The translations under genes and the position numbers were made by a program. DNA of 64,000 nt from Porphyra umbilicalis (lineage: Eukaryota; Rhodophyta; Bangiophyceae; Bangiales; Bangiaceae), in NCBI GenBank assembly GCA_002049455.2, contig KV918785.1:384975-448974 (forward strand), read 5' to 3'. Numbering within the stretch: position 1 is the stretch's first letter; every line of letters begins with the position of its first letter. The notes beneath the pieces were generated by a model. That model was not told the DNA's origin and searched no databases. It saw nothing but the letters and a program-made list of their open reading frames with translations. Positions 1 to 16,275 of the stretch are shown here, in pieces.

Positions 1-3000
1 CAGCTGGCGGGAGAGGGCTACCCCGATGGCTGGACGCGGGTACCCTGGTTGGTCCTCGGGTCCCCCACGACCGAGGCAAAGGCGGCCAACCCGACCGACG
101 CGACGCGCGTGGTCATGGCGTCAAACAAGAACACGACCACGGCGCGGACCCTGCGTATGGCGTCTGTCGACTTCTTCATGTCAATGACCTTTGTGCGGGA
201 CGACCTGGTTAGGGAAGACGACATCCCCGTCCGCAAAGTGACTCTCGCGGAGGTTCTGCGCAGCGCGGGCAGAGCTGACGGGGCCTCGACGGAGGAGGGG
301 CTCGTCAAGTGGATATCGGAGAACCGCACGTACACGTGGTACCGCCTCCTGCAGGCGATCAAGCCGTGGACTTCTGACCACCTGACTGCGGCGCGGCAAG
401 CGCGCGCTGCGCCTGTCGACACGCGGTGCTGGGAGCTGTTCCTGTTCCTGGGCCGCCGCGTCGATGATCTGGCCGACGTGCTCGTCGACGCAGACGGGCC
501 CGCCGAAACGGATGGGGCACCGGCCACGGCTGGCACACGTGCCAGTAGTGGCGGTGGCGCCAGTGCAGGGGGGCGCTCCCGGGTCGGGTTTACGGACCGC
601 CCGGCGGACCGCCTGCCCCGGGTTGCATGGAGCATGCTCCGCTGCCCTGTGCTGGTGTCCCATCAGTGGCGCAACTTTGGGGGCCCCTCTCTCCCAAAGC
701 TCGCGAAAGGACCACCCAAGCGCACCAAACGAGGGCGGCGCTCGGGTGCGGGGCCATCCCAATCCCCGTCCGACGAGGAGGAGGACGCAGACGCCGCCGA
801 GGGCAGCTCTGACGCGCCCATGGACGTCGACCGAGACGGGGTGGCGTCGGTCGCCGTGGACGGTGCGCCCGACGGTGGCGACGGCGCGCCGCCAACAAAG
901 GTGCGCCGCGTCAGTCGCGGTGCCGCGGCCGCGCGCGGTGTCGACAGCGTTGCCACGGGTACGGACAAGGCGGCCGCCGGCGCGGCATCGAGTGCGCCCC
1001 GAGACGTTGCAGACGAGGGACGTGCTGCATCGGCCGGCGCCGCGGCGATGACCGTCCAGCTGCGGGTGCCCCGTCAAAGCTCTCCGCTGCTGTTGTCGCT
1101 GCGGCGGTGGATCGCTCCCAGGCGCTGTGCGAGACTGCTGCGTATTGTGTGATCGACAAGACCACCACTACGCGCCGTGTGGCACCGTCTGGTCCCTACG
1201 CGACCCCGTGGGAGCGGCTCTGGTGGTTTACCCAACTCGCGCGCGACGTGACGGCGGCGCACCCGTTTCTCGAAGACGTCAACGACACGAGGCCCTCAAA
1301 GCCGACGCCCAAGCGTGCGGGCAAGGCCCCGTCCAAGCGCGCGGGTGCGGCGGACGGGGCGCCGGCGGCGCGCAACACCCCCGGTCGTGCTTCCCGCGTC
1401 GCTCGACAGGGGGGCACCCTAAAGACCAGGGCGGCCAAGGCGATCGTCGCCGGTGCGACACCGCGTCCGCGACGGACGCCCGACCCGGTCGGCACCGTCG
1501 ACCGCGAGCTGCGGGGCTTTCGCGTCAAGGCGCAGATCATGGCGTGCGTGCGATCGTGGGACGTGCTTGCCATCTTGTGTGGCTTCCCCGACAGTGAAAC
1601 CATGCTGTCGCCCTACCTGTTGTGGTCCGCCACGAATGTGTGTTTTGAGCCGATCACCGACGCCCGGTTGGGGTTCGCCCCCCTGGCGAGTCGCCATCGC
1701 CTGTGGCATGGGCAACGGCCCTCGGTGGACCCAGCCGTGGTCGACGCCGCTGCGTTGCGGCGGCTGGACGCTTTGCCGCGGGCGGATCGGGCGTTGCGGA
1801 CAGCGGCCGTTCGCTTTGTCGAGCACGTCGTTGCCGTTTCCAACGGCAAGGACGTTTGGTCAAACACCTACAACCCGCTGTCCATGCGCGCCGACATTGG
1901 GAGTTTGAGCGGCGCGTCCTTCCTTCGACCCCGGCGCACGCTGGTGGATGGGCTGGCGCCCGTCTTGTCGAGCTACCTGAAGCAGCTGCGTTTGCCGGTC
2001 GAGGCGGACCCCGCCGACGCTGTGCGTGCCCCCGTCGCGCCGGAAGGGGCCCTACCGACAGACACCTCTGTCGGGCTGGTGGCCGGCTTGACCGACGCGG
2101 AGCGTGACGCCTTCCAGGTGGTCGACCGCGCTCTGGCAGAGGAGTGCCGCACGTACGAGCTCGACTTTTGGAAGTTCCCCGTATCCCGCCTCCAGCTGCG
2201 CGTCCAGCTGCTGCTGACGGACATTCCGTGGAATACGCGGCGTGTCGCTGGCAATGACAACTCTGACCACGACGTCTTTACCGACTCGGACCGGGGGGTG
2301 CTGTGTGACTTTGCGACGTCCAGCGTTCGGCAGGGGGGCCACGCCATCATCATGTGTTCCTTCTCCCAGTTTTCGGACCTGTCCAAGACCCTCGAATCGT
2401 ACAAGGCCCCGACGACGAACGAGTCGCTGTGGGCGGTGGACGCGGGCCCCATGGCCTTTATTTGTTCGACGCCGACGGGCGCGCCGCGAAGCACCACCAC
2501 CCTCGCCAACCACATGTTTGTGGCCGTACACGCGACGCGGCGCGGCGCGGGGTTGGCCGGCCACCGCATGGTCAACTACCGCGTGTTTGACAGTGACGTG
2601 TCGAGTATGCCCGGCAACAGCAACGTGTACAACCATGTGACGCAGCCGACGGGTCGCGAGGTCGTCTATGCGGGCGACGGCATCCTGCGCCCCGAGCAGA
2701 AGCCGGTCAGCCTCTTGCGCGAGCTCATTCGACGCTTCACCAAACCGAGCGACGTCGTGTTGGACCTGTTTGCGGGCTCCTTTTCAACGGCGGACGCGTG
2801 CATCCAGACGCGGCGCCACAGTTGGAGCTGTGACAAGGACCCCGTGGCGGTGCGGTTTGGCAAGCGACGCGTCTTTTCGTCTTTTGTCCGCTTTTTGTCC
2901 TCGACGCACGACGGTCGAGCCATTTGCGAGCGAGATGCGGAGCTGGCATCGGCTGTCACGACCACCGTCGGTGCGCTCGACCGCAACGTGCTCTCTGACG

Positions 3001-3966
3001 ATCGCCCGCCGGCGATGCGGCCTGCGCGGCGCAGCATTTTGCAGCCGCCCGCGACGGAGATGGTGCCACACACGGTGCTGCCGAGGCACATTGTGGACCA
3101 CGTCGTGGCCGCGTACGTCCCGCTTGCTGCCGCGGACGTGGTGACACCCGTGGAGATTGGGGCGATGTACGCCACGCATCCGCGAAAGTGGCGGCGTGCC
3201 CTTCGGTTTCTTTTTGAGGATTTTCCGCTCGCGTCTCTCCGCGCCGCCGACGCGTCTGCCTGTGGCGTCCGCCTTGGCGTCTCGACCGTGCCGGATGCGG
3301 GCCTCGGCTGCTTTGTCAGCCGGCCGGATGGCTTTGGCGCCCAACACACGGTCGGGTCCTTGTGGGGTCCGGTCGTGTGGCACAACTGTCAGATGGCGCA
3401 GTACGAGCAAGTCAAGAACAGCTTCTACGGGCCGATGCGCGGAAACGCGCGTGTGACGCCCCAGCTCTGCCGCTTGAACGGGCACAAGATGTCTCACTGG
3501 GCCAAGCCGTTTTGGGTTGTGCCCCTCGGCGGGTCGGCGCTCGGGTTTGTCAACCACTGGGGACCGGTCATCGGCGCGGCGCGTGTCGCCGCCGACGCGG
3601 CGACCGGCGCGTGTGGGGGGGGGGGGGGGGAGGGGGGGGGGGGGGGGCGGCGGGGCGGCCGCGCCAGCGCATGATGCGCGTGATGCGAGTGCTGCGGGTG
3701 CTCTGGCACCGGTCGCGCCCGCGCCGGGTCCCACGCGGTCCCCATCGCCCGCGGCCGAGGGGCCCAACGCGGTGTTGAAGTGGTACACGGACATCCGTGC
3801 GGTGGAGGACCTGTCCCGGGACGACACCCTCACCCTCGTGACGACGCGGGCGGTTGCGTTTGGGGAGGAGCTGCTGGTCGACTATGGGGCCGACTTTGAG
3901 TGGAAGTTTGTGCAAAAGGCGCGCGCCGGCACGGGACGGAGCTCCCCGCAGGCGTTTGACCGATAG
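1..3966 (+). CDS. DNA amino-methyltransferase fused to a SET domain (5' partial, two frame breaks)
   Basis: The reading frame is already open at base 1, so the 5' end lies outside the window. Three frame segments join: frame 1 to about 1080, frame 3 from about 1080 to about 3620, and frame 1 from the poly-G tract to the TAG at 3964-3966. The middle segment carries beta-class methyltransferase motifs in the expected order: motif IV DIPWN (2220-2234, for DPPW/Y), a motif X-like KPVSLL (2700), then motif I DLFAGSF (2763-2783) with ACI...D after it. This order is typical of N4-cytosine/N6-adenine enzymes. The C-terminal part reads as a SET domain: GLGCFVS, a LWGPVV strand, FVNHW, PNAVL and GEELLVDYG (3862-3888). 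SET domains usually methylate protein lysines. The first ~350 residues match nothing I recognise. Frame breaks may be assembly errors at the G-runs. Methyltransferase call firm, SET call good, target unknown. Confidence 0.75.
3615..3647 (+). repeat. poly-G tract inside the SET domain
   Basis: Two runs of 16 G separated by one A. The reading frame before the tract encodes FVNHW and the frame after it encodes PNAVL and GEELLVDYG, so the tract sits inside the SET domain and is where the frame changes. The length as assembled may be wrong. Confidence 0.9.
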
Positions 3967-4682
3967 GTCGGGCGGTCCCGGCGCGGCCCCACCTCGGTCG
4001 ACCGGTCGTGCGTTTTGGGTGGGCGGGGGTAGGAACGATCGACACGCGAGATGCATCTTCTTTTTTGTAGGACAGTCAGTAGAGGTTTGGTACATTGTAT
4101 CAATACGATGTGTGCCCAATCCCAATGAGTCGACCACAGGCGACACGCCAGCGCGCCACGGTGCGACTCGGAGCGCGTCGCCCATTGACAGACGCCGTCA
4201 CCGGTGTGGGTGCGCCACTGTGCTGCGCGAGGGACCACAACACTGACGCGCCTGTTGCAACGGCGAGCGTGCGGCGCTTGGGGGCTCGCGATGCGCTGAC
4301 CTGGAAACGTGTGCGCGCAATTGCGAATTTGTCCTCTCGACAACCTCCAAAAACCATCCAAGGTCGCCCTGAACAGCCGATGTGGACCAGTGGAATGGGT
4401 GGACAGCGTCTGACATGCTTACACATTCGCCCGATGCAACTCTACATACATCCTGGAACCGCACGCCTGGGTGTCAAGGAGTCTGCAAAAGTGGGCCAAT
4501 CTCACGACAAAGCACCGGTCTGTTCCTTGAGGTCGTGTCCAAGCCCGAGTCAACAGCCCACAAGCGTGAGAAAAACGCTGATTGGTGGATGCACTGACGC
4601 CACCCAACCCGATTCTATTTTTTACGGACTAGCAATAAATACAGTGGCAGATCGTCCATCCCCCACCGTCGCGGCACCGGTG

Positions 4683-4692
4683 GTCACGTGAC
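4683..4692. promoter_or_regulatory. palindromic G-box GTCACGTGAC
   Basis: Perfect 10 bp palindrome with a CACGTG core, the usual site of bHLH and some bZIP factors. It lies about 180 bp upstream of the TATA box of the first AAA gene. The same 10-mer occurs at 11922-11931, just after the second AAA gene. Function is inferred. Confidence 0.5.
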
Positions 4693-4869
4693 GCCCAGCG
4701 CGTACGGTATGGGGGGTACAACACCGACTGCGACAGTGCACTGGACGGGTCTGCCACAGGGCCCACGAGATGGGCGGTTGTGGTTTCCGCGGTGGGGACG
4801 GCTGCATTGCTGTTGCTGAGAGGTGGCTGTCAGCCCATCGTGATTGGTCGTCCCGCCGGCGCCAGCCCC

Positions 4870-4876
4870 TATAAAA
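4870..4876 (+). promoter_or_regulatory. TATA box of the first ATAD2-like gene
   Basis: TATAAAA in a GC-rich context, 179 bp upstream of the ATG at 5055. The second AAA gene has TATAAATA 151 bp upstream of its ATG, so the paralogues share promoter layout. Confidence 0.6.
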
Positions 4877-5054
4877 CGTTGGTGGGCGCCGCGGCTCGGG
4901 GCAGAGACGGGACGGCCAGCGCGGTGGTCCAGATAGTGACACCCTCCTCTCCCACCCCACACACACCAACTGCCCCCGTGGCCGCGTCGGTCGGGCGCCC
5001 CCCCCCCCCGCCCCCCCCCCCTTGTGTGTGGCGGCGGCTCCCTTGCTTGTCAAC

Positions 5055-7395
5055 ATGGACGGCAAGCCGCGTGCCACGCGAGTGACGGTGCCGGTGGCGA
5101 CCGCGCGGGCGATGGGGTGCCCTCCCCCCCGACGCTGGTCGGCGCGGCGTGGGTGGCGCGGCCGCGCCCGCTCGGGGCAGGCGGGGCCGGCGGGCCGCCC
5201 CCGCCGGCCTTGGGCGCCCCCCGCTGTCGTCTGCCGGGGCGCGTCCGCGTGCACCCCCCCGCTGCCGGCCGAGGTGCCGGCGCTCGGGGTGGCAGGCGCA
5301 CCAAGGCCCCGCCCGAGGCCCCCCCCGAGGCCCCCCCGAGGCCCCCCCGAGGCCCCGCCCGAGGCCCCGCCCACCACCCCCCCCCCCCCCGATCACCTGC
5401 CACGGGCGGCGCCCAGAACCTCTCGGCGATGTATTATGGTTCCTTTTGTTCATTGTTGGCTGGCCCGCCCCCTCCGCGTCCACAGCACCAGGAGGAGGAG
5501 CAGCCACCGCCGCAGCGACGGCAGCGCCACCGCACCCGCACGGCCGACTCACCGCGGTCGTCGACGCCACCGCCCGAGCCGCTGCAACTGCCCGACGACA
5601 CGCCGGGATGGGACGCGCTTGCCGGCCAAGCGGCCAACGTGGACGCCCTGAAAGTCGCCCTCGCCGTCCTCCTGATGCCCGACGCGCGACGGGCGGCGGG
5701 GGCCGCGACCAAGAGTGGGGTTTTGTTGACGGGCCCCCCCGGGACGGGCAAGACGCTGGCCGTCCGCCTGCTGGCGGGCCGTGCCAAGGCGCTCAATGGG
5801 GGCACCGTGGTGCCCCTGTGGGTCCTCAATGGCGGCGAGCTCCTCTCCAAGTGCGTCGGCCACGGCAAACAGTGCGTCCGGCGTGTGATGGACGCCGCCA
5901 CCGCCGCGCAGCCGTCCATCATTTTTTTCGACGCGTTTGAGGCGCTCGCGGCCACGCGCACCGGCGGGCGCCAAGAGTCGATGCCCGTGATCGCCACGCT
6001 GTTGGCGTTCTTGGACGGGTTGGGGCGGCGGGACCGGGTGTTGGTTGTTGCGGCGACGTCCCGTGTCGACCTGATCGATCCCGCGTTTCGTCGGCCCGGC
6101 CGGTTTGGTACGGAGCTGCGCTTTGGGCTCCCCGACGCGGCCGGCCGCGCGGCCATCATGCGCGTGTCGGCCGCCGCGGTCGGCGTGCCCGTGGACGCGG
6201 CGGACGCGGCCTGGATCGCCGCCCACACCGACGACTGGTCGGGGGCCGAGCTTGCGGGCCTCTGTGACGACGCCGCCACGACCGTCTTCGCGCGGCGGTT
6301 TCCGGGTGGCCCGACTCGATTAAGGAGGTTGCCGACGATCCTGCCGACGTGCGTGTCGACTGGCAGGGTACCCTCTACCGGCGCGAACAGTTCACGCGGC
6401 TCGGGACGCCGCCGCCCCTGCGGCGGCCGCTCCCCGAACGCGTGGCGCCGCTGCTGGCACCGACGCTGGCCGACGTGCGGGGGTTTCTCACTCGCCACTT
6501 TCCCGTCCAACGGCTCGGGTCGGTGCCTGGGCGGTGCGCCGCCGCAGCGGCGGTTGGGTGCGGCGCGGACACTGGGTTCAGAGGCTTGGCCGCGGGCCTC
6601 CCCATTTTGCCCCAGCGACTGCTCATTGACGGGGACGAGGGGATGCAACAAGGCACCGTCGCAGCTGCGGTTCTGCATGCGCTGACACCAATGCCGATCT
6701 ATGACGCGGGCTTTGTGTCGCTGACACGCGGGGCTGGTGCGCGCACCCCCCAGCAGCGGCTGGCAGAGACGATTTCCGCCGCCACGCGCGCCGCGCCGGC
6801 CGTGCTCTTCATCCCCCACGCACACTTGTGGGTGGACGACCCGTCGGCGGGGGACTCGACGGGCCTGCGCTTTTTTGAGGCGGCGCTCCGGGACGTACCC
6901 GTCGGCACGCCGCTCCTGGTTTTGGCCACAACGGATGGGCGCGCCCGCCCTGCGTTGCTGGCCAGTTTCCCCTCCACCTTTTCTGTCGAATGCGCCACAG
7001 ATGCGCAGCGCACCGACTACTGGGCCCACATCGTCGGGGCGTGGCAGGACAAGTTTGCCGTGCAGCTCGAGCAAGGTGTACGCCTACCAGTCGCCATGAC
7101 GGCCGTACGCGCACGGCTGGAGGCGTTGCAGACACAGTCGGCGGATTGGAGCGTCGACGCGATGGAGCAGGTGTTTGAGGGCCTCCGCGCCCTCCTGTCC
7201 ATGGAGGTCCGGACGGGGGTGGACCTGTGGGGGAGCTTTTTGGGGGCCACCGTCGCGCTCGACGGCGAAATGCCGAGTGTCGGCGCAAACACAGCAGACG
7301 GTGTCGCCAATGACGACACGTACGATGGTGGCGGCGGTGACGGCGCCGCTGACGGCTCTTGTGGACGGGCGGCAAAGCGCACGCGATGTGTCTAG
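5055..7395 (+). CDS. ATAD2/Yta7-like AAA+ protein, catalytically degenerate paralogue (frame breaks)
   Basis: Family: ATAD2/Yta7/Abo1 AAA+ ATPases, nuclear histone chaperones with an active first AAA module and a degenerate second one. AAA1 shows an intact Walker A GPPGTGKT (5732-5755) and the arginine-bearing FRRPGRF. Walker B reads IIFFDAFEAL, so the catalytic Glu is Ala (codon 5933-5935). Sensor 1 is ATSR instead of ATNR, and the pore-loop region is SKCVGHG instead of the neighbour's SKYVGEG. AAA2 (frame 1 from about 6300) has LIDGDEGMQQG and VLFIPHAHLWV, matching the ATAD2 second module. No bromodomain is visible. The likely ATG (5055) is in frame 3; the frame changes to 2 in the C-rich 5300-5390 stretch and to 1 near 6300, the latter not in a homopolymer. 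It is a pseudoenzyme or a decaying duplicate of the gene at 9495. Confidence 0.7.
5303..5372 (+). repeat. six 11-13 bp AGGCCCC(n)CG microrepeats
   Basis: Six imperfect units of AGGCCCC followed by C or GCCCG, in the N-terminal linker of the first AAA gene. They encode a PPEA/PRPP-like stretch and probably host one of the frame changes. Confidence 0.75.
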
Positions 7396-7439
7396 ACGCA
7401 AGCACCGACCGGCGGGGGGGGCTTTGCGCAGGTGGACGC

Positions 7440-8521
7440 GAGTGGGCACCCCCAGGGCACCCCACCCCGGATGGGGTGATGTACCGTTGGTTTTATGGTA
7501 GCCTGGTGGGCTACAAAAAAATATTTTGCAAAAACAACCACCCCGTCGCGGCTACCGCGGTTCGGCCCGGCGGGACCCCTGCGCGTCGCTGGGCACCCAA
7601 GCCCACCACCACGACGCCTGCGGGGTACCCCCAGGGCACCCCCAGGACACCCCCCCCCAGATGGGGTGATGTACCACAATCCAATGGAAAACCTACGAGA
7701 GTTGACTCTAGCAATACCGGTGGAGATATGGTAGCCTGGTGGGCTACAAAAAAATATTTTGCAAAATCAACCACCTACCGGGGTGCGGCCCGGCGGGACC
7801 CCTGCGCGTCGCTGGGCACCCAAGCCCACCACCACGACGCCTGCGGGGTACCCCCAGGGCACCCCCAGGACACCCCCCCCAGATGGGGTGATGTACCACA
7901 ATCCAATGGAAAACCTACGAGAGTTGACTCTAGCAATACCGTTGGTTTATGGTAGCCTGGTGGGCTACAAAAAACATATTTTGCAAAATCAACCACCTAC
8001 CGGGGTGCGGCCCGGCGGGACCCCTGCGCGTCGCTGGGCACCCAAGCCCACCACCACGACGCCTGCGGGGTACCCCCAGGGCACCCCCAGGACACCCCCC
8101 CCCAGATGGGGTGATGTACCACAATCCAATGGAAAACCTACGAGAGTTGACTCTAGCAATACCGTTGGTTTTATGGTAGCCTGGTGGGCTACAAAAAACA
8201 TATTTTGCAAAATCAACCACCTACCGGGGTGCGGCTCGGGGGGACCCCGGCGCGTCGCTGGGCACCCAAGCCCACCACCACGACGCCTGCGGGACCCCCA
8301 GGGCACCCCCAGGACACCCCCCCCAGATGGGGTGATGTACCACAATCCAATGGAAAACCTACGAGAGTTGACTCTAGCAATACCGTTGGTTTTATGGTAG
8401 CCTGGTGGGCTACAAAAAACATATTTTGCAAAATCAACCACCTACCGGGGTGCGGCTCGGGGGGACCCCGGCGCGTCGCTGGGCACCCAAGCCCACCCCC
8501 CACGACGCCTGTGGGGTACAC
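7440..8521 (+). repeat. ~222 bp tandem repeat array, about five copies
   Basis: The landmark CTGGTGGGCTAC occurs at 7503, 7736, 7957, 8181 and 8402, giving periods of 233, 221, 224 and 221 bp. Each unit holds TAGCCTGGTGGGCTA (a TAGCC/GGCTA hairpin), an A-run, TATTTTGCAAAA, a GC-rich half with CCCAGGGCACCCCCAGGACA, and GATGGGGTGATGTACC. Copies 2 to 5 are nearly identical and copy 1 is the most diverged. The array begins about 45 bp after the stop of the first AAA gene. It is open in several frames on both strands, but none resembles a protein. Confidence 0.92.
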
Positions 8522-8596
8522 AGCCAAGGGAGCGCGTGAGCTGTGGACGCTTCGCAGAGGAGGCCTATGACACGGGCGGTGATGAGGAACCTCTAG

Positions 8597-8894
8597 TGTC
8601 TATTCTACCGCAGCATCATTTGATGCGAATGGCATCAAATGATGCCCATTTTCGGAGCGCTCGTTTTCGTACTTCCCGACCTCTGACGCTCTTTTCGACT
8701 GCAGAAACGGACTCAGCGATGCCTTGTTATTCTTGGGGGAGATCCCAGCCAATATGCTGTAGATACAAACGGGGGGTGCTCCAGTTGCCTCACAGGGGGG
8801 GTAGAACCGTCGTTTTCTGGCCCTGGGAGAGGGTGCATCATTTGATGCCCAAACGGGCATCATTTGATGCTGCCCGATTGCGGTAGAATAGACA
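8597..8894. mobile_element. MITE, 298 bp, CTAG target-site duplication
   Basis: Perfect 16 bp terminal inverted repeats TGTCTATTCTACCGCA (8597-8612, inverted at 8879-8894) are flanked on both sides by CTAG (8593-8596, 8895-8898). Just inside the ends are four copies of the 14 bp palindrome GCATCAAATGATGC or its complement form, at 8613-8626, 8632-8645, 8834-8847 and 8857-8870. No ORF. CTAG could be a 4 bp target duplication or part of a longer TIR. Confidence 0.75.
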
Positions 8895-8985
8895 CTAGGG
8901 ATATGAGACACGGGGGGTTGCTAAACAAAAGACATTGGGCGGGCGTCGAGGGTGGAGCAGGGGGGAGGGAGGGGGGGAGGCGGGC

Positions 8986-9045
8986 GGGGAAGGCTGCAGC
9001 CAAGGACAGAGACGTGGGGAAGGCTGCAGCAAAGGACAGAGACGT
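8986..9045 (+). repeat. 30 bp tandem repeat, two copies
   Basis: Two copies of a 30 bp unit beginning GGGGAAGGCTGCAGC and ending GGACAGAGACGT, differing at one base. They lie in a G-rich, purine-biased stretch (about 8940-9110) upstream of the second AAA gene. Confidence 0.8.
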
Positions 9046-9336
9046 GGGGACGGGGGCGCACGGGTGGGGGAGGCAGGGGGGGGCGGGCGGACGGGCAGGG
9101 GGCGGGTGTGTTACTGTGCTTCTCACAAAACTCGGACCTAGGTGCGTCAGCAAACTCACTGTTTCATTGGCTCGGGGCTCAGGGGGCGGGTCATGATGCC
9201 AAAGCGGATGTTGGGACGGGACCGTCTGCAACCAGCATCTGCCACCACACGTGCCACTGCCAGATTCGCAGGCTACCGTATGAATACAAACCTCCGTGAT
9301 TAAAAATTAGCCGCTGCCCCCCCTGTCGACAGCGGG

Positions 9337-9344
9337 TATAAATA
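9337..9344 (+). promoter_or_regulatory. TATA box of the second ATAD2-like gene
   Basis: TATAAATA, 151 bp upstream of the ATG at 9495, which has a good CACCATG context. Confidence 0.6.
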
Positions 9345-9494
9345 CGGTCCGGTCGATGTGACTACTGCGACCGCCGCCGACGGGCGTCGACGTCACACCG
9401 AGGCGCCCTCGTGCGAGACCGCGCGGCTCGCTCGGCGGCGCGCGGGGTGCGCGCGGTGCCGCCGCCCTGTCGTTTGCCCCCCGTCTGCAGCACC

Positions 9495-11675
9495 ATGTGC
9501 CCGCCGTCGCCCTCGCCGCGCGGCATGCCTCGGGGTGGTTGTTCCGCACGGGACCGCGCGGCGCGTGCCGCCGTGCGAGACGTGGCGTCGCGCTTGGACG
9601 GGCGCCTCCACACCCTGCCGCCGGCGAGTGCCGCGAGCGCCGCCAACCGCGTGCCCCCCCCCCCGCCCGTCGACGCAGGCGGCTCGCCGGTGCGCCCCGT
9701 CGGGGCCAAGCGCGCCCGCACCGACCGGTCAGTGTCGGGCGGGGCGACCAAGCGCCGCCGGCGGGGCGAGACCGGCGACATTGTGCCCGAGCCCGAGCCC
9801 CCCGCCTCGCTCCCGTGGGAAACGGTGGCGGGCCACGACGCGCACGTGTCGCGGCTGCGCGAGGTGCTGGCGCTGCTCACCACCACGCCGCGCGGGGGAG
9901 GTGTCGGGCGGCCCCTGCCCTTTCCCCGGGGTGTGCTGCTGACCGGTCCGCCCGGGACGGGCAAGACGCTGAGCGTGCGGGTGCTCGCCTCGCACGCGCG
10001 GGCGGCCAATGGTGGCGTCCCCGTGCCTCTGTACCTCATCCGCGGCGGCGAAATCCTCTCCAAGTACGTCGGCGAGGGCGAGCGCCGCCTGCGCCGCCTG
10101 TTTGACACTGCGACCGCGGCGGCCCCGTCCATCTTGTTTTTCGACGAAGTCGACGCCCTCGCGGCGACGCGGGACGACAACCGCGACCACTCGCGGGTCG
10201 TCAACACCTTTCTCGCCTTGCTCGACGGCTTTCGCTCGCGCGGTCGCGTGTTGGTCCTCGCCGCGACCAACCGGGCGGACCTGTTGGACTCGGCGTTTCG
10301 GCGTCCGGGCCGGTTTGACTTGGAGCTCGACTTTCAGCTGCCCGACGCGTCCGACCGCCGGCGGCTGATGGCGTTGCACGCAGGCACGTCGGCAGACGAG
10401 ACGGCGGTCTCGTACGTCGTCCGACGCACAGACGGCTGGTCGGGAGCGGAAATCCGGGGCCTCGCCACCGAAGCCGTGTGCTGCGCGTGGCGCCGGACCG
10501 ACCCGCAGTGGCTCGAGGCGGTGGCGACCGCCGCCACAGACCCGGCGACAGTCGGGGGTGGTGCGGGGGGGGGGGGGGGGGGGGGGGGGGGCGCGCCGCC
10601 GCCGCCGCTCCCAGACGTGACGCACGCGGACTGGGACGTGGCGCTGGCCTCCCGAGCGCAGACCGCCCGGGCGGGGGTATCCCCGGCGCTGCACCGGCCG
10701 CTGCCGTTGCGCCTGAGCGCGCTCCTCGAGCCGACCGTGTCGGGGGTGGTGGGGGTCCTCAACACGCGCTTTCCGTTGGACAAGCTGACCACCCCCGGCG
10801 CCGAGTGGGCCACCCAGGCCGTGGGCGGGCCGACGTCAGTGCGTCTGCCGCCGCCATGCTCGCCGCGTGGCCGGTCCTCCCGCACCGCCTCTGCATTGCG
10901 GGGCGTGCGGGCATGGGGCAGTCGCTGGTTGGGGCTGCGGTGCTGTGCCACCTGCAGTCCCTGCCCGTGTTTGACGTCGGCTTCCTCTCCCTCACTGCGA
11001 GTGGCACCGACGGGCAGCTGCCGCTGCTGCTGTCCACGGTGGCGGCGGCCGTCCGCGTCGCGCCGTCGGTCCTGTACATGCCCGACGCCGAAATGTGGAT
11101 GGCCGAGTCTGCCGCCGCCGCCGACGGGTCGCCCACCGCGCTGCTGCGCAGCGTGCTGGCCCGCATCCCCGTCGACACGCCCGTGTTGGTGCTCGGCGTT
11201 GCCAACGCGGCCGAGGACGTGACAAACGCGTGGGCGCCGACGTGGTCGACGGTCGTGCGCATGGACGGGGCGTCGGAGCAGCAGCGGCGGCAGTACTGGT
11301 GCCCGGTCGTCGACGCGCTCAAAGCGGTCGTGCGCAAGCGTAAGACCGGCGTCGCGCGTGCCCAGCGTCACCGAGTTGCACGTTGCGTTGGACGGCGTGC
11401 ACCTCACGCACGCACCCGTGGACGAGATGGAGCGCGTTTTTCAGCAGCTCCTCGACGCCCTCGCGAGCGTACACGAGGCAGCAGCACCTGTGCCGCACGG
11501 GATCGACACGTGGGTGGTGACGGTGTTGGCGGCCATCGACCAGCTGTCTGGCAGCGGCGGCCGCACGTCCCTCGGTGGCGCACGTGCCGCTCGGTCGGCC
11601 TCGCACGCACCGGACGGTGTGGCTGCTGCCGCATCTGTGGGGCACCGCGCCGGTAGCCGCGGCACAAGCGACTGA
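9495..11675 (+). CDS. ATAD2/Yta7-like AAA+ ATPase, active-looking paralogue (two frame breaks)
   Basis: A nuclear role is suggested by two basic clusters near residues 75-95 (AKRARTD and TKRRRRG), by family a histone-handling ATPase. AAA1 is complete: GPPGTGKT, SKYVGEGERRLRR, Walker B ILFFDEVDAL (Glu codon 10146-10148), sensor ATNRAD, FRRPGRFDLEL, then GWSGAEIRGL. A 27-base G-run (10565-10591) interrupts the linker without changing frame. AAA2 is degenerate, as in ATAD2: CIAGRAGMGQS and SVLYMPDAEMWM. Frame 3 changes to frame 2 near 10840 and back to frame 3 near 11340, ending in a helical tail (VDEMERVFQQLLDAL) that aligns with the tail of the gene at 5055. No bromodomain seen. The breaks could be assembly errors or tiny introns; I found no short GT-AG intron that restores frame. 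Confidence 0.75.
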
Positions 11676-12557
11676 CGCGACGCCTGTCCCACCGTCGGAC
11701 GAGGCGTCGACCGCGCCGCCACCCCGAGCGGAGCGGGGCAAGCGCAACACCCGTCCCGTTCGCCGCTGCCACATCATGCTGTAGGGTGGGGGGGGGGTGT
11801 GGCAGCCACAAACCGCCGCAGCCGAGCGGCGTGCGTCGACCGTCCATTGTTCCTGCGAGTGGGGTGGTCCGTGCGCGTGGCACGGCGTGCCGACGTAGCG
11901 TGGATGCGATTGGCCGAGGTCGTCACGTGACAGTTTGCCGGTACTGTACGGATCCCCGCGTATGTTTACACCACTGTATACCGTCTGTGCAGGGAGATTT
12001 TCCACGTCTTGGGTGTTTAAAATCCCTCTTTTGCAACAACTGTCAAACGAGATGTCGACAATCCGGCAACGCCTCGCCCGGTGTGGCGACACACGCCGCT
12101 GCCAACGGTCGCGTGGTCTGTCCCGCTTGGCTGCACGCGTCTCGGCCCGCGCCAGGGGGATTGCACAGGCGTCGCCGCTCCATCGCGTCGGCTGCCGCGC
12201 CAACGCGCCCATCCGCACGTGCGTGGCGTGCGGGCGCGCACGGGTGAGACCCCCTTGCTCCCGTAATAATTTGGACGGCACAGGGCGAAGTGAATCACGG
12301 CTGTCAACCCCGTGCGGCCGATGCGGACAGACCACACGAGCACTACATACGCGAGGCGGGCTACAAGCTTCTCACAGAGACCTCGGGCTGACGCTGCCCT
12401 TTCCCCGGCTCAGTGGCGCTGCACTGGGGGTGGGACGCAAATGTCATTGCCGGCAATGGGGACCCACATTGGAATCTGAAATCGGCCTGTGCGTGGTCAC
12501 CAGGGCCGATTTTTTCTTCGAGCCCATGTGGATTACAGTCATTATTCGAATATGTCC
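11676..12557. other. intergenic region downstream of the second AAA gene
   Basis: No convincing gene. Contains GTCACGTGAC at 11922-11931, a twin of the G-box at 4683, and moderately GC-rich unique sequence. Confidence 0.6.
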
Positions 12558-12600
12558 GGCTTGGTTATATCCACAGTGGATATAACCAAGCCGTATAAAT
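12558..12600. promoter_or_regulatory. 35 bp perfect inverted repeat abutting a TATA box
   Basis: Arms GGCTTGGTTATATCCAC (12558-12574) and its exact complement (12576-12592) are separated by a single A. TATAAAT (12594-12600) follows immediately. The nearest ATG on the + strand is at 12635. This could be a dimer-binding operator, a cruciform or a remnant of a hairpin element. Whether it drives a gene is unknown, since the reading frame after 12635 becomes antisense-like within about 40 codons. Confidence 0.65.
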
Positions 12601-12780
12601 CGTGGAAAGTTGCATTGCTGAAGGACTGGATGCGATGGACTCGACGCCGTCAGCCGATGCACCCCTTGCACCAGCGCGCCTCGGTCCTGTTGTCGCCCTC
12701 ATCATCGCACGCAACGCTTCTCGCATGCAAGCATTGCCCGCAGCCACCGCATCCAACCATCGTCATCCACAACGAGCCGT

Positions 12781-13110
12781 TTATTGGTCCCCATCCTCCC
12801 CCGCCAAAACCAAGTCCACCGTTTCAGCAACAGCCCCACAGTCGTCCTCGGCCGCCAACCACCGTCGCACAGCGTCCTCGCGGTCCGCCGTGCTCATACC
12901 TCCAAACTCCTCCGACAACGTGGTGTTGGCCATCAGGGCCACGAGGTCGGAAACGTCGGTGTGTGCGTTGTCGGTCACGGGCTGCACCCCATGCACCTGC
13001 CGCCGCACCTCCGCCACCGCCTCTCTCGGTAGGACGTCAGCTTGTAGCCAGCAATTGTCCTTCAACAGCGGGCAAATATGCAGTAAACTCTTGGTGGTGA
13101 GGACTCGCAC
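12781..13110 (-). CDS. hypothetical acidic protein fragment
   Basis: About 95 residues read like protein (for example PREAVAEVRRQVHGVQ, VSDLVALMANTTL, STADREDAVRRWLAAEDD) with an acidic C-terminus; the opposite strand is Ser/Arg/Thr-rich like an antisense shadow. The stop TAA overlaps an AATAAA. There is no in-frame ATG at the 5' side (the first usable codon is GTG), so it would need an upstream exon or is a remnant. Family not recognised. Confidence 0.3.
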   Translation of the reverse strand: MRVLTTKSLLHICPLLKDNCWLQADVLPREAVAEVRRQVHGVQPVTDNAHTDVSDLVALMANTTLSEEFGGMSTADREDAVRRWLAAEDDCGAVAETVDLVLAGEDGDQ

Positions 13111-13258
13111 ACCAACCGAATACTTCTCGGTTTGTTAAATACACCTGTGAAACGCAGGCTACTTCTGCAACGACCCCCTGACATAATCGGATATTGACTG
13201 TAACTTTCCGGGCCGACGAAGATGTATTGCTTTACAGCGTTAGAAGCGTCTCAACGCG

Positions 13259-14433
13259 ATGAAGAATGCCCCGCCGTGGCCGTCGAGCTCACCGCACCGG
13301 AAGTGTGCTGCACATGACCTGGTGGAACGCGGCCGCAGCGCACTCCACATCGGCATGTGGGGGATGGAAGCCAGTCCTCCTCTGCGACCATGGCATCGTT
13401 TGCACCCCCCCCCCCCCCCCCGGCCACCGCCACCGCCACCGCCCCCGCCCCCGCCGCCGCCGCCGGCCTTGGCGCTGCCGCTCGCCGCGGCACCTCCCAC
13501 TGAAAGGCAACCCTTCTTCGTGTTCTCTGGATCGGTTTTCCCCTCCCGCGCTTTGTTTTCAACAACCAGTCCGCCGCGCCATCGACGACAACACCGCCAG
13601 GGAGCTGCTTTGGGCCGCCAATCTCGTCGTCAGCTGCTGCTCGACGGGCGGATGGGCTCAGTAGCCTTTGTTGCGAATGCAACTGACGACCTGGACGCCC
13701 TCCATGTGGCGGCTGAGCTCGGCATCAAGGGGGTGGCGACCTACGGCGGCATCTCGGAGGCTGCCGTTTCCGGAAAGTTGCGCGCTCACGTGCCTTTCGT
13801 CAGGCGGCTCCGTAAGCGCGTCACCTCTGTCGCCGAAATGCAAATGAGGTTGACCCAGAGGTTGCGGCGGGACACCTCGTCGCTCAAAAGAAAGACCGAC
13901 GCGTTGGCGGCGGGTGGCGGGGACACCTTCCGGCTCCGCACGGGCATCAGCCGCGTAAAGGCTCGCATCCTCCAGCTGAATTCCGACCTCAAGACGATTC
14001 GTCAAGTCACCGACAAGGCCATTGTGGAGCTGGGTCAACGTGAGCACATCCTCAACCACCTCTGCGCGACTGCCCGTAACGCTTTCTGCCGCACCCAGTG
14101 GCGCATGGGTTTCGCCCAAGGGATGCGGGAGCTGATGGCGGCGAGCGTCATGTCGAGTGGATCGACGGGCCAGGACGCGACTGCCGAGCCGCCGGTGCTG
14201 CCATCGCCGTCTGCACCCTGGCGCCGACGGAGGTGCCCTCCCTCGGCCAGCACGTGCGACACAAGATGCTCGTGTCGCGAGCCGCCGCCGAGGCGACGCG
14301 GTCGGATGCGATCGAGCTGCTGCCCGCGTCGGAGACGCAGTACCAGACACTGGAGGACTGTGCGAGGCCGGGGCAACAGGCTGCCGTATGTTATATTTCC
14401 TGGTCTTTACGACAGGGTACTCTCAAAGTGTAG
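13259..14433 (+). pseudogene. broken gene encoding a helical/coiled-coil protein, three frames
   Basis: Coding character moves between frames. Frame 3 to about 13660 includes CFQQPVRRAIDDNTARELLW. Frame 2 from about 13650 to 14200 includes LHVAAELGIKGVATYGG, VPFVRRLRKRVTSVAEMQ and ARILQLNSDLKTIRQVTD. Frame 1 from about 14190 includes TLAPTEVPSLGQHVRHKM. The centre is Leu/Arg/Lys-rich and probably alpha-helical. A long (CCG)n/poly-C stretch at 13398-13470 lies near the start. Possible ATGs are at 13259 and 13266. I do not recognise the family. The frame changes are not confined to homopolymers, so decay is more likely than assembly error; a spliced gene is the alternative. Confidence 0.4.
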
Positions 14434-14689
14434 TGCTGCACACATATGCTTAGATCGTGGGACTTGCTCTCCGTTTCAGAGGTGACAGTCTGCATTCATA
14501 TTCTCGGCCTGTTGTGCTCTGCTGTTTCGTGTCGGACATACGGAAAACACTCACCGCCTGTCAGGCAAAGCACTGGTCCCGGCCGAGGTGGGAGTGAGCT
14601 GGACAGTGTCCGCACCACGGCCGGAGCGCCACCCCCCACAAGCTGGAATGCAGGAACGTTTGTGATTGGCCAAGAGGAGCAACAGCAGT
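14434..14689. other. intergenic, no feature seen
   Basis: Between the broken gene and the truncated MITE relative. No reading frame with protein character. Confidence 0.5.
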
Positions 14690-15025
14690 GCATGTTGGGT
14701 CCCATCTGTACAGAATGTGCCCGTACGGCCCGCACACGCACGATCGGCGCACTCGTTTTTCTCAGAATAATTGAGAATCCTGAAGAAAATCTCGATAACT
14801 CACTGCTCTGGGCTACTTTACCACATGAGACGACTGAGAACGGAAGAATATCTCAAGAAAACCGAAAATCTCGATTCTCCACGAACCTGGCGGTTGGAGA
14901 GCCAATGGCCCGTCGAAGATACGCACTCAGCAGCTGTTTGATGCTGTTCTAGACCAATGGTTGGCCTGTTTTACAAAGCAGTCCCGGTCTTGGCCGATGA
15001 GGACAAAATGGGGGGATCAGCAATA
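14690..15025 (-). mobile_element. truncated relative of the 21895-22339 MITE, inverted
   Basis: The reverse complement of this stretch aligns over about 330 bp with the element at 21895. Shared blocks are TATTGCTGATCCC at its outer end, TTTTGTCCTCATCG, AACAGCTGCTGAG, TCGAGATTTTC, GGCCGTACGGGCACATTCTG and ACATGCACTGCTG. Only the end at 15025 carries the TIR; the end near 14690 lacks it. Confidence 0.65.
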
Positions 15026-16275
15026 CATTGAGGGAGAATGTCTTTTCGATGCTGTCATAGAATTCCGAGCTTCGTCACTGTAATGGCGGCTAGTCGTCCT
15101 GTCCCTTTGCTCTTGTGACCACCATGGCGTTGGGTCCCTTTTTTTTTACCCCGTTGTCGCTGTGTCTTTTTCTCTTCTCCAGTTGTCGCGTCCCCATTGT
15201 CGGTCCCCATTTGATATCTTCATCTTTGTCGTATGGTTCTCAGTATAAAACAATGGTCAGCAAAGCAAACAAGCACAGCTCCCGGCGCGCCGCCACACGC
15301 AGGGGGAGGTCGACAGCGGAGGCCGCCAGATGCCTCAAGAAATGAACAAGAGATGAGTAAACACTCCGGCAGGGACCGGGGGGGGGAACGGGGAAGGACG
15401 TGAAACGCATGGAGGAAAAAAACGAACGTCAGTACAGCTCGACTTGCATGGCGTGCGGATGGGGGGAGGGAGGGGGGCAAAGAATGGGGCAGATGCGGCG
15501 CGCGGGCGCAAAGAAAGGGGGAGGGGGGGGGGCAAAAAAAGGGGCGGCCTTGGTGTGGAGTGTATACTGTACAGTGGGGGTTCCCCGAAGGTATCTGTAA
15601 ACGCTTTTGGCGGAATCTGTAATCGCTTGCGTGTGTAATCCATCTGGACCAGAGCGATCGTGAGCCATCGAATGCTGAAACGTGGATATTCTTGATTGGG
15701 CGTGTAGATGGGACCATCCAATCAAATGGCCTAGAGGGTGACCATCAAATCGACTAGGGCCATCCATTCTATGCAACGTGGCTGCCTGAGCGTTGAGAAC
15801 ACGAATGGATCCCTACTAGAAGCTTCGCTAATTATCATCCACAGCGGTTCTTCTACCGAGCAGAATGGGAAGGAGGCAGCAGTGGGTCGGGGACGCACGC
15901 TGGGCTCCGCACCTGCAGCAGACGCCGGAGGTACACAGTGGTTCAAGCGGAACACCTGTGGCAATGCGCGTGATATCGCGATGGCCTACTGGCATTGCTC
16001 AAAGGAGCACAACTGGATCAGGTCTAATCTGCTGCGGCGTGCCTGTGAAAGCGGCCATGACTGCTCGTGGCGGACGAGGCGGGAAGATTAGATGCAGCGA
16101 TGCATCCGTGATGGGCCACCGATCCGTGTCAACAATCTGGCCAAGATCCGCACGCGTTCGTGCGACGTGTCAACCTCGTTTTCGATGTGACAAGCGCGCC
16201 ATCCGCACAGCGTCCCCGACCACCTCTGCTCTCCGTCCCCCCGCCTCCCCCCCACCCCGCTCCCTCCCCCTGCCG
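15026..16275. other. intergenic, pyrimidine- and G-rich stretches
   Basis: No supported gene. Holds a T-run near 15135, TATAAAA at 15244, G-rich low-complexity DNA at 15460-15545, and a lower-GC stretch at 15590-15850. Pyrimidine-rich sequence at 16230-16270 runs into the helicase leader. Confidence 0.55.

Follow-up and report, generated by a model that had tools for sequence, protein, structure and literature searches.

A gene joining a DNA amino-methyltransferase to a SET domain resides in a giant transposable element of the red alga Porphyra umbilicalis

Introduction

Does a gene that joins a bacterial-type DNA amino-methyltransferase to a SET domain serve the chromatin of its algal host, or does it belong to a mobile element that passes through the genome? 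The question is raised by a stretch of 64,000 nucleotides from Porphyra umbilicalis (GenBank assembly GCA_002049455.2, contig KV918785.1, positions 384,975 to 448,974 of the forward strand; herein the window), whose left margin carries such a gene (herein MTase-SET). A prediction made from the sequence of the window had seen both sets of motifs in one gene and proposed that a single protein could couple a DNA mark to a histone mark, or that the gene was cargo of a mobile element. Here, we define the gene and its relatives, and we find that it is a long-standing resident of a giant element, the right part of which forms the first 15,831 bases of the window.

Results

MTase-SET Is One Gene with Collinear Relatives

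The MTase-SET gene occupies positions 1..3966 on the + strand, its 5′ end lying left of the window, and is read successively in frames 1, 3, and 1 (1-1149, 813-3671, and 3478-3963 in the list of open reading frames [ORFs]). The first frame break falls somewhere between about 444 and 1515; the second falls at a poly-G run (3615..3647, +) inside the SET domain, at a loop of variable length among relatives, and is present in this assembly. Long poly-G/C runs are frequent in the window, and those at 3615-3647 and 10565-10591 coincide with coding frame changes. All of the motifs named in the original prediction were located in this gene: DIPWN (motif IV, 2220-2234), RPEQK (motif X, 2688-2702), and DLFAGSF (motif I, 2763-2783) of the methyltransferase, followed by GLGCFV (3300-3317), FVNHW (3546-3560), PNAVL (3763-3777), and GEELLVDYG (3862-3888) of the SET domain and a stop codon at 3964-3966.

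Relatives were drawn from public genome and metagenome collections. Fourteen were found by searching with the methyltransferase part, and a further 24 by searching with an alignment built from nine of these, for a total of 38 besides the Porphyra protein (P0016, a ParB-MTase, is left out of this count). Two N-terminal pieces of the window gene have counterparts in this family. The frame-1 stretch (79..444, +) matches residues about 103-223 of relatives P0003, P0004, and P0006 (E 2.6e-5 to 2.4e-4 in blastp, against 0.27 or weaker for the ten control rows listed) and gives no match to the N-terminal profile of the family at E ≤ 10. The frame-3 stretch (1515..1868, +) matches that profile at E 9.5e-16, the control ORFs doing no better than E 4.8 and shuffled controls being absent from the list at E ≤ 10; it is predicted to form a conserved helical N-terminal domain (predicted local distance difference test score of 83-96 for the block at residues 241-340). 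These N-terminal similarities are more than chance. Because the pieces match, and are collinear with, single relative proteins, we assign them to one gene, and the relatives, which carry both domains collinearly, rule out a mere adjacency of two genes or an artifact of the gene model. A DGAHR motif in residues 1-110 of P0003, P0004, and P0006, a region that would lie left of the window, looks ParB-like by eye, but a ParB-like N terminus lacks support from profiles: Pfam gave no match, the PDB none that was meaningful, and hhalign a probability of 16% (E 0.0016).

The deposited protein, BU14_0070s0059, maps to the window DNA in four exact blocks, bar one junction residue, and omits 81, 21, and 109 bases. 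The 21-base gap (2304-2324) removes CDFATSS, which aligns with CDFAKS in a relative, and the 109-base gap (3399-3507) removes a part of the SET core that matches relatives; since the residues lost are conserved, we read both gaps as prediction artifacts. Judging by complete relatives, the full protein would comprise roughly 1,000-1,200 residues, with the conserved N-terminal region followed by the methyltransferase and the SET domain.

A β-Class Methyltransferase Followed by a Divergent SET Domain

The methyltransferase domain (2133..2897, +; residues 441-695 of the structure model) is of the β class by sequence and by predicted fold. Pfam N6_N4_Mtase is found in the middle frame (E = 1e-12, 49 bits, cut-off 26.7), which also matches solved β-class enzymes such as RsrI and CcrM; its motifs run in the order IV - X - I with the target recognition domain between, as in that class; and the model of the window protein finds M1.HpyAVI, CcrM, and the N4CMT of bdelloid rotifers among its structural matches. 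CcrM and M1.HpyAVI, which represent phage and bacterial β-class enzymes, share the fold and the motifs and have no SET domain. Motif IV, for which the class pattern is [DNS]PP[YWF], reads DPP[YF] in 38 of 39 family rows. DPPY is typical of N6-adenine enzymes, and on the strength of that rule the family product would be N6-methyladenine (6mA), with N4-methylcytosine (4mC) less likely. The chromodomain that marks the N4CMT type was not found in Pfam scans of the window and family proteins.

The SET domain is split by the poly-G run into a first half in frame 3 (3273..3560, +) and a last half in frame 1 (3763..3903, +). Against Pfam SET the last half alone reaches E = 0.041 (14.7 bits, cut-off 22.4) and the first half has no match. 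Against a SET profile built from seven relatives, in single comparisons, the last half gives E 2.7e-6 (hhalign probability 88.6%) and the first half 5e-4 (31.7%). That profile in turn finds lysine methyltransferases in the PDB, namely KMT5A (E 3.2e-8), KMT2C, KMT2A, EZH2, and the viral vSET (1.3e-4), and the model of relative P0004 matches SET7/9 (Foldseek E 1.1e-5, target-normalized TM score 0.35). Among the relatives, 6 of 10 scanned lie above the Pfam SET cut-off, with a best E of 6e-9. The Porphyra SET retains NH and GEELLVDYG, and from the SET fold of the family we expect it to methylate lysine. The original prediction had named the lack of a SET fold after 3300 as the result that would overturn it; both halves match the SET profile of the relatives, and the fold itself appears in the model of a relative. 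The window model, which stops before the last SET half, matches β-class methyltransferases, the SET fold being seen in the model of P0004.

The Fusion Is Old

When 15 proteins (14 relatives and the Porphyra protein) were scanned, N6_N4_Mtase was found in all 15 and SET in 10 at E ≤ 0.1; 19 of the 24 later relatives carry both domain labels in precomputed annotation. In a tree of 73 rows, 36 family rows, the window included, form one clade against 37 prokaryotic and viral rows with a support of 100. The 37 were taken from the 70 best among 143 loci, a motif pair recognized by regular expression being required; P0018, P0019, P0035, and P0016, among others, were left out, and the window row stands for P0001. 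Pairwise identities between members in the methyltransferase and in the SET domain are correlated (Mantel r = 0.78 over 32 of 39 proteins, a value reached in 0 of 5000 permutations). By these sequence comparisons the fusion is old and its two domains co-diverge. One relative, P0039, is labelled as a protein of a Bacteroidota metagenome-assembled genome; its tail rich in asparagine and serine makes a misbinned eukaryotic contig the more likely source.

No prokaryotic or viral counterpart of the fusion came to light in pattern-based scans, in which absence is not proof. The window protein had no match among phages; relative P0005 had 217 and 169 records among phages and plasmids, respectively, none with 80% coverage. 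In IMG/VR, nothing was found with P0001, and the 74 and 42 loci with alignments include none that reaches SET. Across one genome per prokaryote species there were at least 69 loci, whose alignments cover the methyltransferase region or adjoining sequence and do not reach SET. Within the 143 loci from IMG/VR and prokaryotes together, no ORF of at least 120 residues matches the SET profile at E ≤ 1.

MTase-SET Is Multicopy and Lies between Sharp, Repeated Termini

The Porphyra genome holds 48 matches to the MTase-SET gene, which include copies 90-98% alike, spread over ten contigs, and a diverged group for which the figure is mostly 33-43%; some of the copies have open frames longer than that of the window. 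All 21 genomic matches to N6_N4_Mtase (E ≤ 0.001) lie at MTase-SET copies or their diverged subfamilies. A host chromatin gene was rejected on the outcome of this genome search. Up to the poly-G run, the copies on contigs C60 and C88 differ from the window copy at 0 and 1 of 2,121 coding bases; since three gene copies are practically identical over this length, amplification has been recent.

The repeated unit is far larger than the gene. From its left margin to position 15,836 the window DNA aligns with copies on C60 and C31, at 93-100% identity for most of the length, and then stops; exceptions are one 310-base block at 89% and stretches at ~10.8-11.5 kb (C31) and ~12.5-13.5 kb that are missing or different. 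C88 aligns likewise as far as compared, and its right end was also read. Window positions 1..15831 are the right part of an element of 65,016 bases (C25:335791-400806, C25 being the contig of the window), the other 49 kb of which lie left of the window. Its right terminus (15793..15831, +) ends in ...GGATCCCTACTAGAAGCTTCGCTAA. The last 200 bases of the element have 41 genomic matches listed, its own included, and at 22 distinct sites the similarity runs as far as CTTCGCTAA (slightly varied at two of them) and then gives way to differing DNA, the next base being T at 19 of the 22. At the other extremity, 31 of 49 listed matches start at query 3788-3791, equivalent to C25:335,791, and four at 3815; the DNA before this point differs between copies, and the shared left end begins ACCAGTAG. 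These figures refer to the best 40 of 171 scored candidates for right ends and the best 40 of 1499 for left ends. No target-site duplication was seen by eye at the nine copies with both flanks (C25, C60, C88, C31, C272, C363, C56, C8, and C5, the pairing on C5 being uncertain). On C293 (12445-12837), two right ends lie head to head a few bases apart, the second inverted. With its sharp repeated termini and differing flanks, this part of the window belongs to a transposable element.

For pairing of the ends, the 48 matches were reduced to 24 MTase-SET places (C30 and further fragments of a copy already counted being omitted) and compared with 38 of the 41 right-end rows (C407, C84, and C116 stop short) and with part of the left ends. 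With orientation taken into account, 12 of the 24 places, belonging to nine elements, are flanked by a left and a right end, and 16 are followed by a right end. These nine elements, each with its two ends on a single contig and MTase-SET enclosed, measure 33,269 to 84,461 bases; the largest, on C5, is 75 or 84 kb long, depending on a second left end (525,424, 24 bases further in). On C5, C8, and C33, the same termini enclose diverged MTase-SET subfamilies (about 35-37% alike), from which we infer that the residence of the gene in the element is old. The element is mobile and MTase-SET resides in it: of the two origins originally proposed, the mobile-element cargo gene is strongly supported by termini, copies, and flanks, and can be sharpened to a resident gene of a giant repeated element.

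The Element Carries a Fanzor-Like Gene and AAA ATPases

From the left end, the element carries an antisense Fanzor/TnpB-like gene, a zinc-knuckle ORF and a leucine-rich-repeat ORF, an Ulp1-like ORF, and repeat arrays, and then MTase-SET, a first AAA ATPase gene, a 222-bp array, a second AAA ATPase gene, a 412-residue ORF, and the right end. The Fanzor/TnpB-like gene (C25:336032-337951, − strand; L237:4032-5951) matches PF07282 at 27.5 bits (cut-off 26.3) and has the [TS][TS]xx-C4-RD motif of Fanzor and TnpB proteins given in the consulted portion of PMC3627910, as VDEHNTSQTCAECG...CTNVACPATYVGRD; its ORF has no meaningful match among solved structures. Of the PF07282 matches in the genome, 27 of 32 lie 0.85-0.97 kb (within 1.2 kb) inside a listed left end and antisense to MTase-SET, and seven of the nine bounded MTase-SET elements have one, the two without being those on C363 and C33. 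The 679-residue ORF at C25:346337-348373 (L202:1337-3373, −) matches an Ulp1-like protease weakly (E 5.8e-4, 20.2 bits against 20.7). On account of this ORF, a KDZ transposon was considered and then put aside.

Within the window, a CDC48-type AAA ATPase gene in two frames (4940..7392, +; PF00004 5.6e-29 in the first frame) lies inside the block common to element copies; AFG2 and p97 are its nearest PDB matches, and an ATAD2/Yta7-type neighbor was rejected on this ground. A 222-bp minisatellite array (7482..8519), also in the common block, and the second AAA ATPase gene (9342..11650, +; PF00004 1.1e-36 in the first frame) follow, the frame overlap of the latter containing the poly-G run at 10565-10591. 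The 412-residue ORF at the right end (13244..14479, +) has no confident domain and enters the block shared with C60 only from about 13500. Beyond 15831, the ORFs resemble host nuclear genes (a UvrD-type helicase, emp24, Myb, and mitochondrial ATP synthase alpha). The window copy of the element is inflated by minisatellite arrays and by an apparent internal duplication, which brings in another MTase-SET copy. Minisatellite units of roughly 195-220 bp form arrays of up to 14 kb, at C25:370292-384333 and in similar stretches on C60 and C88; because they vary greatly between copies, array length probably explains much of the difference in element size. The C31 copy contains a nested Ty1/copia retrotransposon (L236:356-3718; RVT_2 2.1e-54).

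The Termini Fit a Helitron in Part

The right end reads CTAA at most sites, in line with the CTRR of Helitron 3′ ends, and the left end lacks the 5′ T or TC of Helitron and Helitron2. Predicted hairpins reach −17.8 kcal/mol at the left end and only −4.8 kcal/mol at the right. The genome has 28 Helitron_like_N matches to the Rep-helicase (RepHel), none of them on the contigs of the nine bounded copies. We rejected a classical Helitron: the termini fit partly, but those contigs show no RepHel match and the 5′ end differs; the element may be a non-autonomous Helitron. The Helitron Rep domains of Porphyra lie at 28 places, e.g., C18:44473-45018, several of them in open frames of more than 1,000 residues.

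Discussion

We propose that MTase-SET is a dual writer, encoded by the element, that marks the DNA or chromatin of the element itself, and we put the probability of this role at roughly 0.55. The methyltransferase would place 6mA, or less likely 4mC, on the element's own DNA, and the SET domain would methylate a lysine of neighboring nucleosomes or of a protein encoded by the element. Jointly, the two marks would counter host silencing so that the element stays expressed and readable, or else they would label ends or new copies for transposition. As first suggested, a single protein may couple marks on DNA and on histones.

Several observations count against this role. Two frame breaks disrupt the window copy, and one or two stops occur in each of five among the seven other copies compared; in these five, the ratio of nonsynonymous to synonymous substitution rates (dN/dS) relative to the window copy is 0.43-0.79, a weak measure of constraint, given the few changes among stop-bearing copies. 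Porphyra is also the sole row of 39 without DPP in motif IV, reading DIPW. For eight of the 24 places (C22, C7, C62, C113, C82, C40, C39, and C345), no downstream right end of matching orientation is listed. MTase-SET lies upstream, again in matching orientation, of only 13 of the 41 listed right ends, leaving 28 without; some contigs with element ends lacking the gene stop close by. Two pairs of ends, C55:24181-43887 (19.7 kb) and C56:4161-18331 (14.2 kb), enclose no MTase-SET match and are read as shorter or deleted versions of the element. Given such ends, a copy of the element can do without the gene. Among the ORFs scanned, which are part of those of the element, none was recognized as a transposase or replicase.

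It is conceivable, if unlikely, that only one of the two domains is active, the SET domain being a degenerate scaffold or reader while the methyltransferase acts, or the reverse. The SET domain is divergent, as the Pfam scores above attest, its NH pair is ND in most relatives, a point that also tells against a dual writer, and most have an insertion within the NHSxxPN motif; yet G-x-G and the final E..Y are retained in most full-length members, SET and methyltransferase co-diverge, and the P0004 model matches SET7/9. A serious rival, to which we give somewhat less weight, is that the methyltransferase shields the DNA or the ends of the element from its own Fanzor-like RNA-guided nuclease in the manner of restriction-modification, with SET as an accessory. 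It gains its seriousness from the Fanzor-like gene, which lies just inside the left end in most of the matches listed and in most bounded elements, and from viral Mariner elements that, in the portion of PMC3627910 consulted, encode a transposase, an endonuclease, and a methyltransferase. Two of the nine bounded elements lack the PF07282 match, however, a methylation block of Fanzors, the known ones being RNA-guided, is a supposition, and this explanation gives the conserved SET domain no role.

Two further explanations bear on the origin of the locus and have far smaller probabilities. It is very improbable that the element is a large endogenous virus and not a transposon: its 33-84 kb, its several genes with AAA ATPases, the weak Ulp1-like protease, and the Fanzor-like gene would suit a virus, and Fanzors occur in large viruses too, according to the same portion of PMC3627910, but the ORFs scanned, a part of all ORFs, contain no capsid, DNA polymerase, or packaging gene, and the IMG/VR scans yielded no relative with both domains. 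The least credible explanation is a host chromatin regulator captured or duplicated by chance, with no role for the element. Large elements do capture host genes, and many listed ends have no MTase-SET match; against this, N6_N4_Mtase is confined in the genome to these loci, and the diverged subfamilies between the same termini speak for old residence. The dual writer encoded by the element is the reading we retain.

The closest known systems include the Fanzor-bearing transposons, among them Helitron2, which, to judge from the consulted portion of PMC3627910, have in common with the Porphyra element a Fanzor-like gene and, as far as the termini fit, the lack of a visible target-site duplication, a left-end hairpin, and a 3′ CTAA. 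The Porphyra element differs from those described there in its 33-84 kb, its MTase-SET gene, AAA ATPases, and arrays, and in that no RepHel was found on the contigs of the nine bounded copies. In the consulted part of PMC8885841, the N4CMT of bdelloid rotifers carries a chromodomain reader where the Porphyra protein has a SET writer, and it is presented there as a bdelloid gene of horizontal origin whose introns are conserved, rather than as a repeated element. DNMT-bearing retrotransposons of dinoflagellates and charophytes are likewise mobile elements that encode their own DNA methyltransferase; in the portion of PMC5890265 consulted these are C5-cytosine enzymes, and "SET domain" has 0 occurrences in its main text. 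In the open-licence literature, we found no description of a DNA amino-methyltransferase fused to a SET writer. SETMAR/Metnase, a host SET gene fused to a transposase, shares a SET domain tied to transposon history and is not known to carry a DNA methyltransferase.

Mobile elements with their own DNA methyltransferases are already known, and one animal lineage has fused a bacterial-type methyltransferase to a histone reader. What the literature searched does not describe is a DNA amino-methyltransferase and a predicted SET writer in one protein, retained by a giant element through deep divergence. A tentative extension, less probable than the role itself, is that a lineage of Fanzor-bearing giant transposons encodes a single-chain dual writer, giving the element an epigenome of its own that would separate self from host, and, as the relatives suggest, that the same device may exist in other, probably microbial, eukaryotes. 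The Porphyra element would make it possible to test whether elements write their own chromatin state, and would serve as a natural system in which to address the presence and action of 6mA or 4mC in red algae.

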